From Thermodesulfobium acidiphilum (GTDB lineage Bacteria > Thermodesulfobiota > Thermodesulfobiia > Thermodesulfobiales > Thermodesulfobiaceae): a stretch of DNA of 64,000 nucleotides. Made by a program: the position numbers and the translations under genes. Shown here piece by piece: positions 33,630-37,176 of the stretch (its first letter is position 1; each line of letters starts with the position of its first letter). The notes beneath the pieces are model-generated. The model ran no database searches, had not been told where the DNA came from, and saw only the letters and a program-made list of their open reading frames with translations. The stretch spans positions 1,710,795 to 1,774,794 of the forward strand of contig NZ_CP020921.1 in NCBI RefSeq assembly GCF_003057965.1, read 5' to 3'.

Positions 33630-34220
33630 TCAGGCAGATTTTGAGGTAAGGATCTTTTCAACCATGTCACAGATTATGTGCTCAATCATAATATGACATT
33701 CCTGTATTCTTGGAACGTTTTTTGACGGAACGCTTATACAGATATCAGATAGTTTTTCCATTTCATTTCCAGCCATACCTGTAAGCGAGATTGTGCTTAT
33801 ATGATAAAGTTGAGCAATTCTTAGCGCCTTTATTAAATTTTTAGAATTCCCACTTGTCGAAATGGCAAAAAAGACGTCACCCATTTCACCTAGCGCTTCA
33901 ATCTGTCTTGCAAAAATGCTTTCATATCCAAAATCATTTGAAATAGCTGTAATAATTGAAGTATCAGTAGTAAGGGCTATAGCTTTTAGAGCTTTCCTTT
34001 CCAACAAAAATCTACCAACAAACTCTGCTGCAATGTGCTGTGAATCAGCAGCACTACCACCATTTCCCGCAATCAAAAGTTTTTTCCCAGACCTTAGCGC
34101 TGCAGATATAACTTTAACGCTCATTTTAACAGTTTCTAAAAATCTATCATCAGAAAGCAACTTATCTTTTAACTCCAGGGCTTCAGATATTGCTTTTCTG
34201 ATTTCATCCTCTACAATCAT
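33630..34220 (-). CDS. gmhA: Phosphoheptose (sedoheptulose 7-phosphate) isomerase
   Basis: A 196-residue SIS-domain isomerase that starts heptose synthesis for lipopolysaccharide core or glycosylation. SGKKLLIAGNGGSAADSQHIAAEFVGRFLLERKALKAIALTTDTS is the characteristic active-site region, and the Glu-His pair near the C-terminus (QECHIMIEHIICDMVEK) is kept. It overlaps the glycosyltransferase gene by four bases, which points to a common role in sugar attachment at the cell surface. Other heptose genes (gmhB, hldE, waaC) are not in the window. Confidence 0.92.
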   Translation of the reverse strand: MIVEDEIRKAISEALELKDKLLSDDRFLETVKMSVKVISAALRSGKKLLIAGNGGSAADSQHIAAEFVGRFLLERKALKAIALTTDTSIITAISNDFGYESIFARQIEALGEMGDVFFAISTSGNSKNLIKALRIAQLYHISTISLTGMAGNEMEKLSDICISVPSKNVPRIQECHIMIEHIICDMVEKILTSKSA

Positions 34221-36604
34221 TTACTTTTCCTTTCAAAAAAGTTGAGCATCTCTTTAGAAAAATTTTGGATAGAAAACTTTTCCATGACAAAAGCTCTTGC
34301 CCTTTCTCCAAGTTCTCTGGCAAAATCTCTATCTTTAGCCAATTTCAACATTGCACTATACAATTCATCTTCATCAGGGAGAGCCCACTCCCAATCTGGA
34401 TTATATCCCGAGCTATTTTGACCTATTTTTTCGAACTTATAATTTAAAAGTATAGAATTGTCTTTATTCATAAACTCAAGGTTACCACCGTATGCTGTAG
34501 CAATAACTGGTTTTCCAAGCCACATAGCTTCTATTAGAGGAAGGGCCATGCCTTCACAACTGTGCGGAGAAACGTATGCATCTGCAGCATTTAATATAGT
34601 AATATATCCATCTCTGTTCGTAGTCTCATCCACAAATACAACGTTGTCAGTAATACCCAATTCTTTAATGTATTTTGCGAGTTTTACTTGATTTTCAGAA
34701 TATTTTGCAGCCTGAAAGGTCTTAAATATTAAATATACATCGCTATATTCTCTTACAACCCTCGAAAGAGCCCTTAAAAGCAAAAACGGTCTTTTTCTGT
34801 CAAAATCTCTGAAAAAGTCCAGTATAAACATAAAAACAAAAGAGTCATAAAAACCAAAGGTTGCTCGAAGATTCTTTCTGTGTTGTAATATTCTCCAATC
34901 GTAAGTGAATGGATACAAAAACTTATATACCTTTTTCCCTCCCGCTTTAATTAAAGCGCTTTTTACAAAATCTGAATAACACATAACTTCATCTACCAAA
35001 GAAAAGGCCTTAGGGTCATCAAAATACCTATCAAATTCCCAGTTCCAGATTGCAGATGTTCTGCCTTTGAAAATATTGCTTGATATATCTTTAAGATAAG
35101 CCAAATCTTCTGAATTAATAAAAAATATTGTGTTATTAAATGATAGATTATTAACGTTAAAACAAGCAATATTTTTAATTTCCTCTTCAGAAACTCTCAA
35201 ATTTGATGTAACGGGCAAAAAGAAAAGCGAACACGGAATACCCAGTGAAGATGCCTTTCTAAAAAAGGATCTTGCTTGAACCCCAAGCCCAATCTTCGAT
35301 TCAAAAAACCCAACGATGTTTATTCCAAAAGGGCTATGCTCAATACGAGATGTATCAGTAAGGTTGTAATTAACCCTTAAGATATCCTTCAATGTTACAG
35401 TACTTATTATGCCAGTCATAGAAAAAGTCAAGCGTAAATCCAGTCTTGACTCAATCACACATCTTGCAAACCTACTTATAGAGCTGTATTTTGTGTGCAG
35501 AAAAGAAAGTATTGCCCTTACATTTTCTCTGTCAGGTAAATATGGATTCCTAAATCTCTTAAATATTTCTTCTGAATATCTTCTTCTTACTTCAAGAGGT
35601 ATCCTAATTCTTGTTAATGGAAGGTACTCAAAATAATATGGTAATTCCTCAAATTTTCTTTTATTTTGGAAAAAACTTTTGTTATAGTACTCGTTTACTA
35701 ACTTTATATACGATTTATTTATTGATCCAAAAAAGCTTACGTGATCGAATAGAAATAAATCATCCAGATAAAACCCACTAAATTCAAAAAGTGATATCTT
35801 CTTGAGAAGATTTTTTCTATTTACAAAATAATTAGATTCTTTAAATATGATATCTTCTTTTTTAACATTATAAAAGGTCAGAGTATACTGCAAATCATCT
35901 AATTCAAGATATTTTAGCTTTGATATCTCTTTCCTGTGAAAATAGGAGATATTAGCTTCAGTATTTTTTAAAGCAAATATCGATTCTTTGAAACGAATTA
36001 CATCATAATCATCCAAAAGATCGTATAAGCCCTTTACATCAGAAAGGCAGAAGATATTTTTCGATAAGTACAAACTTTTTTTAAATCCAACATAAGCAAA
36101 ATATTCAAAAACATATGACAAAATCCAGTTTTTCGACTCATCCTTAGTAGATGTCCAAAGAACTTTATGCATATCCCTACATGAAATTTCTGACAAAAGT
36201 TCACACAAAAAGAAAAATTTAATACCTCTAGATACCAATTCGTTAAAGAGTCTAAATTCTCTAATATCCTTTAAAAGGTCTACAACTACAACTACAAATT
36301 CAATGTCTGGATTGTTTTTTAGAAAACTATCCCTTAAATTTAGGGCATAGTGCATTTCGTCTTTGTTAATTATAGTAAACGCAACATCTTTGTGTTGAAC
36401 AGGAATCTTGGGAGAATAGTCAAAATTTATCTTAACGACTCTTAGATCTTCCCATAAATCCTTTGCTTTAAAAATCTCATATTTTATCTTTTCTAATCCC
36501 TTGCTTAACGAAGAAGCAAACCCCTTTTTCTGATAATTTTTTAAGGACTTTCTAAACGAAATATATCTTGAGAGCGAACTTTTAAATAACGTGTTTTTAA
36601 ACAT
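34217..36604 (-). CDS. Large two-part glycosyltransferase
   Basis: A 795-residue protein. The first part (about residues 60-330) has DVAFTIINKDEMHYALNLRDSFLKN and resembles the N-terminal region of nucleotide-diphosphate-sugar transferases. The second part (about 415-795) is a GT-B glycosyltransferase of the GT4 type: FGINIVGFFESKIGLGVQARSF, KTFQAAKYSENQ, NAADAYVSPHSCEGMALPLIEAMWLGKPVIATAYGGN. It may use two sugar substrates or the first part may recognise the acceptor. It sits between gmhA and the tandem UGA genes, with only one base to the latter, and follows the flagellar operon, so flagellin or surface glycan modification is likely inference. Confidence 0.82.
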   Translation of the reverse strand: MFKNTLFKSSLSRYISFRKSLKNYQKKGFASSLSKGLEKIKYEIFKAKDLWEDLRVVKINFDYSPKIPVQHKDVAFTIINKDEMHYALNLRDSFLKNNPDIEFVVVVVDLLKDIREFRLFNELVSRGIKFFFLCELLSEISCRDMHKVLWTSTKDESKNWILSYVFEYFAYVGFKKSLYLSKNIFCLSDVKGLYDLLDDYDVIRFKESIFALKNTEANISYFHRKEISKLKYLELDDLQYTLTFYNVKKEDIIFKESNYFVNRKNLLKKISLFEFSGFYLDDLFLFDHVSFFGSINKSYIKLVNEYYNKSFFQNKRKFEELPYYFEYLPLTRIRIPLEVRRRYSEEIFKRFRNPYLPDRENVRAILSFLHTKYSSISRFARCVIESRLDLRLTFSMTGIISTVTLKDILRVNYNLTDTSRIEHSPFGINIVGFFESKIGLGVQARSFFRKASSLGIPCSLFFLPVTSNLRVSEEEIKNIACFNVNNLSFNNTIFFINSEDLAYLKDISSNIFKGRTSAIWNWEFDRYFDDPKAFSLVDEVMCYSDFVKSALIKAGGKKVYKFLYPFTYDWRILQHRKNLRATFGFYDSFVFMFILDFFRDFDRKRPFLLLRALSRVVREYSDVYLIFKTFQAAKYSENQVKLAKYIKELGITDNVVFVDETTNRDGYITILNAADAYVSPHSCEGMALPLIEAMWLGKPVIATAYGGNLEFMNKDNSILLNYKFEKIGQNSSGYNPDWEWALPDEDELYSAMLKLAKDRDFARELGERARAFVMEKFSIQNFSKEMLNFFERKSK

Positions 36605-36605
36605 A

Positions 36606-36881
36606 TTAAGTTACCACTATAAGTTCTTTGAAAAATAAAAATTTTTTCAAACCAATTCTTGTCTTATTTTTAAGATTTAATTCTTTAGGTATATAAATTT
36701 CTATTCCCTCCTGTTCAAAAACTTTATATGCTATTCCTTCCAAAGGCTCTCCAACTCTAACTGAAGGAGGTAAAGGGACCCTGCTTCAAGAAAAGCAAGA
36801 CGAAGCATTTATAAAAAAAATCTTTGATCCCTTTGATTTTATGTATTCTTTAGCCTCTTTATCAAATTCAAATTTAGGCAT
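36606..36881 (-). CDS. Probable selenoprotein with C-x-x-U motif, copy B
   Basis: A 91-residue protein if TGA at 36788-36786 is read as selenocysteine (residue 32). Before it comes FDKEAKEYIKSKGSKIFF and Cys29, giving C-F-S-U. After it come PPSVRVGEP (PSVR at residues 39-42), IEIYIPKEL and a hydrophobic C-terminus FFKELIVVT. It aligns without gaps around the motif with the preceding gene. From memory it resembles the HesB-like or CC/Se-motif small (seleno)protein family; no search was possible. The ATG has GGAGG five bases upstream inside the end of copy A, which it overlaps by 8 bp; the stop is one base before the glycosyltransferase. A decayed gene is the alternative, but conservation beyond the TGA argues against it. 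Confidence 0.72.
36749..36769 (-). other. bSECIS-like hairpin of copy B
   Basis: Starting 16 nt after the TGA, CTCC-TTC / GAG-TT-GGAG form a seven-pair stem (one wobble, TT bulge) with loop AGTTA. The loop begins exactly 23 nt after the TGA and has G at its second position. Both match the published bacterial SECIS rules (loop 16-37 nt away, G in its first two bases). Thermodynamic folding was not run. Confidence 0.6.
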
Positions 36882-37176
36882 TTTTACCTCCATCTAAAGC
36901 ATATATAAAAATATATTCCTTACCATAGGAACTTGTCTTTGCATCGATCACAAGATCTTTATCGTAAAAAAAATTTTTCGGCACATATACAACAACATCA
37001 TCAAAAAATATACAATTATATTTATCAAATTCTTTCTTAGGTCTTCCCCATCTAACTGATGGTATTCCTGAACCAGTCCCTCAAGTGCTACACAACAAAT
37101 CCCTCGATGGCAAGACATATATTTCTTTGCCACTCTTCTCAATTAATTTAATTGCCTTTTTAGTTAAAGATATCAT
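36874..37176 (-). CDS. Probable selenoprotein with C-x-x-U motif, copy A
   Basis: A 100-residue protein if TGA at 37083-37081 is read as selenocysteine (residue 32). The N-terminus LTKKAIKLIEKSGKEIYVL matches copy B in pattern. Cys29 gives C-S-T-U, then GTGSGIPSVRWGRP (PSVR at residues 39-42), VVVYVPKNF and YGKEYIFIYAL. A standard reading stops at the TGA and leaves the rest unexplained. Sec-containing C-x-x-U motifs usually act in thiol redox or metal chemistry. The ATG has no clear ribosome site, so initiation may be weak or the mRNA nearly leaderless. It is first in a series with copy B, the glycosyltransferase and gmhA. Confidence 0.72.
37048..37062 (-). other. bSECIS-like hairpin of copy A
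   Basis: CCATC / GATGG form a perfect 5-bp stem with loop AGTTA. The loop begins exactly 23 nt after the TGA and has G at its second position, the same geometry and loop as in copy B. Confidence 0.6.

Follow-up and report, generated by a model that had tools for sequence, protein, structure and literature searches.

Two overlapping genes on the minus strand of the window, by which I mean the whole stretch of 64,000 nucleotides of Thermodesulfobium acidiphilum DNA that was analysed, very probably encode selenoproteins that belong to, or stand next to, the curated family NF041239. The original prediction, that this region holds a pair of C-x-x-U selenoproteins, is backed by matches to that family, by conserved TGA codons, and by the selenocysteine (Sec) machinery of the genome.

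Two Overlapping Frames with In-Frame TGA

The two tandem genes were first proposed for positions 36606 to 37176 with no strand named. Both frames, here called A and B, lie at those coordinates on the minus strand.

36874..37176, minus strand: gene A, 100 codons (100 aa) with TGA as codon 32 and TAA as stop; divergent CC/Se-motif subfamily, motif C-x-x-U
37081..37083, minus strand: in-frame TGA of gene A (putative Sec32), kept in four species
36606..36893, minus strand: gene B, a 95-aa frame with TAA as stop and motif C-x-x-U; member of NF041239
36786..36788, minus strand: in-frame TGA of gene B, codon 32 counted from 36881 or codon 36 counted from 36893, kept in four species
36887..36891, minus strand: Shine-Dalgarno sequence GGAGG of gene B, 5 nt 5' of the inner ATG at 36881 and inside the end of gene A, as read from the sequence

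Gene B probably starts at the inner ATG at 36881, giving a protein of 91 aa. Counted from there, Cys29, U32 and PSVR39-42 are common to A and B, so that these residue numbers and the two frames of 100 and 91 codons hold as predicted, with 95 codons as the alternative for B if it starts at 36893. The frames overlap by 20 bases with the outer start of B or by 8 with the inner one, and their translation is therefore probably coupled. No Shine-Dalgarno sequence is evident for gene A, whose start codon is GTG in two of the four species of the genus.

With standard stops, the region from 36606 to 37176 contains ORFs of 64 aa at most, in keeping with its described non-coding appearance, and A and B are open only when TGA is read as a residue. 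Translation of the plus strand of the region yielded nothing. The pair is far from being a chance pattern. Over 86 aligned columns the two proteins are 27% identical (E = 1e-5, a single comparison), and each of the four genus genomes keeps both, as befits the divergent tandem pair that had been described.

Relationship to a Known Family

Gene B matches the full length of the NCBIfam HMM NF041239 with 59.4 bits (cutoff 40; E = 2.8e-16). Gene A reaches 36.2 bits over residues 2-80 (E 4.8e-9), 4 under the same cutoff, and to judge by its sequence is a homologue that formally represents a related subfamily beside NF041239. The CC/Se-motif family named at the outset was thus well chosen, with B above the cutoff and A just below it. 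The claim that standard gene callers will miss both genes is partly true: it fails for B, since the annotation library of NCBI holds a model that B passes, and it stands for A, 4 bits short. With A narrowly missing a curated cutoff and both frames seeming non-coding under standard translation, the pair illustrates how selenoproteins can drop out of annotation.

NF041239 (Moor_selen_rel) is described as a CC/Se motif family (seleno)protein, and A and B resemble it in the CxxU motif and in a length of about 91 aa. A 2026 review (PMC13188914) lists the family with the motif CxxU, present in both A and B, describing it as hypothetical and as a prediction from Moorella thermoacetica; the Moorella prediction also appears in a 2022 review (PMC9312934). 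Since the family is both curated and reviewed, this kind of selenoprotein is already known, though functionally uncharacterised. A and B depart from it in that A scores under the curated cutoff and was found only in the genus, and in that the two form a tandem, overlapping pair. The new elements, among them the tandem arrangement and the fold assignment discussed below, are modest. Also added here are the divergent subfamily represented by A, restricted to the genus among the sampled genomes, and the presence of four paralogues in each genome of the genus.

The family was found in seven of 386 sampled genomes, four of the seven being those of the genus. No A-type relative outside the genus was found in the 386, the sole match there being a fragment of 27 residues. 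In each of the four genus genomes there are four proteins that belong to the family or are closely related to it: A, B, a form with Cys in place of Sec (L021-L024), and a longer protein with the motif CGxU. The genus is therefore suited to comparing Sec and Cys versions, offering a tandem pair of CxxU forms alongside a single Cys form and a longer CGxU form. The Cys form of T. acidiphilum (L021, G000:C1:1065489-1065764, plus strand) scores 90 bits, has Cys at the Sec column and otherwise no motif Cys, and is kept in all four species.

Searches of Pfam gave no family for either protein, and those of the PDB no chain matching either by sequence. A tblastn search of plasmids with B gave no match. 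One further candidate, L035, is a match of 14 residues in a high-GC genome with nothing outside that segment, and was dismissed as chance.

Conservation of the Genes and the Meaning of Their UGAs

Both genes are kept in the four genus genomes examined together with both TGAs, the gene order and the neighbours on either side. Synonymous change in A and B amounts to about 0.5-1.9 per site in the more distant species pairs. No indel occurs in A or B in any of the four species, and indels are present in the intergenic region upstream of A. Purifying selection acts on both genes beyond the TGA: the dN/dS ratio there is 0.12-0.28 for gene A and 0-0.10 for gene B, comparable in size to the ratio 5' of the TGA. 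Relatives were checked for frame-breaking change in this part, and what they show is conserved, not random, sequence.

The selenocysteine machinery of T. acidiphilum is established by computation. Its genome, one contig of 1.77 Mb, has a tRNA-Sec with a score of 77.5 bits (Rfam cutoff 47), directly adjoined by the gene for SelB, and SelA and SelD both score above their cutoffs. The four genes for which a search had been proposed (selA, selB, selC and selD) are thus all present.

The gene selD (L018, G000:C1:1501951-1502874) has an in-frame TGA of its own near the start, within a CAGU motif, and SelD is likely itself a selenoprotein. It is among the selenoprotein families listed in PMC13188914.

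Computation likewise establishes the equivalence of Cys and Sec at the column in question. Cys stands there in the relatives that have no TGA, both in the same genomes (L021-L024) and in another phylum (L036). The Cys-form relatives L071-L073 share the motif NTC with these. Sec relatives from another phylum (L038-L041) have C-x-U, with TGA at the same column. The gene B of each of three sister species (L025, L026, L028) has one TGA inside, as Sec, and another as its terminal stop, immediately ahead of the ATG that opens the next gene. TGA is therefore also an ordinary stop in the genus, and its recoding depends on context. Sec is presumably inserted at the UGAs of A and B.

Two other readings of these codons may be set against this evidence. 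Were the genes decayed or truncated, the TGAs would be true stops and the remainder pseudogene or untranslated sequence. Standard translation does stop before the TGA codon, and the hairpin of gene B that might direct recoding is weak, but the same TGA position, the lack of indels and a dN/dS far under 1 beyond the TGA recur in four species, the gene order is conserved, the Sec machinery is complete, and relatives have Cys at the Sec column. I consider decay very improbable; a pseudogene or a sequencing error, in particular, is ruled out by the conservation across four species. Even less probable is that UGA is read by some other route, through reassignment to Trp or through general readthrough. 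This would equally leave the frames open, given that an open frame with TGA as a residue leaves the identity of the residue unspecified. Against it, TGA serves as a stop elsewhere, at the end of gene B in the three sister species, the relatives carry Cys and not Trp at the Sec column, and tRNA-Sec, SelA, SelB and SelD are present. TGA as Trp is ruled out by the Cys of the homologues and by the use of TGA as a stop.

Hairpins Downstream of the UGAs

The bSECIS model quoted in PMC13188914 calls for an apical loop of 3-9 nt whose first positions contain G[G/U], located 16-37 nt after the UGA, and a minimum free energy of -7.5 kcal/mol or lower. The scan used here tolerates bulges; an earlier version that required an uninterrupted stem missed the hairpin of gene B.

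37043..37064, minus strand: hairpin of the bSECIS type in gene A; its apical loop AGUUA (37057-37053) lies 23 nt 3' of the UGA
36749..36769, minus strand: putative hairpin of the bSECIS type in gene B; its loop AGUUA (36762-36758) lies 23 nt 3' of the UGA, and the structure is weak in the T. acidiphilum genome

In both genes the loop AGUU(A/C), with G in its second position, begins 23 nt 3' of the UGA and is kept in sequence. The hairpin of gene A agrees with the model in all four species (-7.7, -11.3, -12.3 and -10.7 kcal/mol), the best loop being displaced by one base in the species at -10.7 kcal/mol. That of gene B reaches the limit of -7.5 kcal/mol in two of four species, both at -7.9 kcal/mol, and stands at -6.8 in a third. 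In T. acidiphilum it falls short of the limit, and the structure preferred by the scan is a weaker hairpin at another place, at -5.3 kcal/mol. As a random control, 2.8% of 1000 TGAs from the window reach -7.5 kcal/mol. When codons were shuffled synonymously, 2% to 39% of the shuffles were as stable as the real hairpins, a modest excess. Since the loop coincides with the PSVR codons, constraint on the protein and constraint on the RNA are inseparable there. The SECIS element of gene A may be called good and that of gene B marginal.

Predicted Fold and Possible Mechanism

The products of A and B are likely, on the strength of structural models, to be small single-domain proteins with a fold of the IscA/SufA/HesB type. 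The AlphaFold2 model of A has a pLDDT of 80 and that of B one of 81, and in both the CxxU loop has low pLDDT. With model A as the query of Foldseek, the nine best rows consist entirely of IscA, SufA, further putative Fe-S-biosynthesis entries and AQ_1857 of A. aeolicus (best E 5.7e-3). Z values from VIA-align are 9.5 for IscA, 9.3 for SufA and 8.2 for DsrR with model A, and with model B 8.8 for IscA and 8.2 for DsrR, within a range of 7.5-8.8 over IscA/SufA/DsrR; these values are barely above what the tool terms the "common" range, yet nearly all of the rows listed represent one fold. When the A/B family was aligned by hhalign with 11 PF01521 proteins, two HesB-like Cys forms included, the two were collinear over 82 columns and Sec fell on the conserved Cys35 of HesB/IscA, in a match that is weak (probability 5%, E 0.008, single comparison). 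The HMMs of PF01521 and TIGR01911 do not match A or B, and NF041239 is their sole match up to E = 10.

The predicted fold is common to A, B, IscA/SufA (PF01521) and DsrR. In contrast to IscA/SufA, with which they share about 10% identity, A and B have Sec for Cys35 and an additional Cys three residues ahead of it, and they lack, in the alignment, the C-terminal C-G-C or any Cys pair there. The HesB-like selenoproteins (TIGR01911) and their Cys forms share with A and B the predicted fold, the placing of Sec or Cys in the corresponding loop, and a length of about 100 aa, but their motif is UxGP rather than CxxU. An IscA/HesB fold for the CC/Se motif family was not found in the available text of PMC9312934 or PMC13188914. 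The predicted fold, with Sec in the loop of Cys35, provides a testable structural hypothesis for the CC/Se family and a link to the HesB-like selenoproteins.

Given a match to the IscA-type fold, the absence of the CGC and a poorly predicted CxxU loop, I propose a redox-active CxxU site, with carriage of a soft ligand or of sulphur as the main alternative. The internal UGA of each gene is probably decoded by the SelB/tRNA-Sec system of the cell itself, guided by the hairpin just 3' of it. Sec would then sit in the loop that in IscA bears the ligand Cys35, with the second Cys three residues earlier. Its selenolate would attack an electrophile such as a disulphide or persulphide, and the Cys would resolve the attacked state, forming a selenenylsulphide. 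A redox site of this kind on a HesB-like scaffold seems, judging from the models, the most likely mechanism, by a modest preference.

The alternative, somewhat doubtful but well worth consideration, is that A and B carry a ligand (an Fe-S cluster, a metal or persulphide) in place of the A-type carrier that the genus lacks, and have no part in redox catalysis. The match to the IscA/SufA/DsrR fold and the alignment of Sec with the column of IscA Cys35 would suit such a role, as would the lack of any PF01521 match in the four genus genomes (G000-G003). Against it stand the missing C-terminal CGC motif and the CxxU pair, typical of redox sites according to PMC13188914. Many sampled genomes without PF01521 are, moreover, also without NF041239, so that replacement is only a lead. 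Roughly weighed, redox use comes out somewhat ahead of carrier use. The products of A and B may form a hetero-oligomer. The more specific proposal of an obligate A:B hetero-oligomer, which would have an IscA-like scaffold, bear two selenolates at its interface and provide a Sec-based replacement for the absent A-type Fe-S/sulphur carrier, is improbable.

Surroundings of the Pair and the Longer CGxU Paralogue

Downstream of gene B lie two genes in conserved order.

34217..36604, minus strand: glycosyltransferase gene, encoding a 795-aa protein whose group 1 glycosyltransferase domain is C-terminal; begins 1 nt past the stop of B
33630..34220, minus strand: GmhA-like sugar isomerase (SIS domain), overlapping the end of the glycosyltransferase gene

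Flagellar hook genes follow beyond the isomerase. Among these neighbours (the glycosyltransferase, the GmhA-like isomerase and the flagellar hook genes) there is no clue to a substrate of A or B.

The longer paralogue of T. acidiphilum (L058, G000:C1:1443874-1444215, minus strand) also has an in-frame TGA. It is about 114 aa in length, with the motif CGxU and a longer C-terminus, and it is kept in all four genomes, its orthologues being L031, L032 and L033. The last of these scores 24.8 bits with NF041239, under the cutoff of 40, and its kinship is weak. L031 lies between genes that, judged by eye, are PhoU-like and universal-stress-protein-like.
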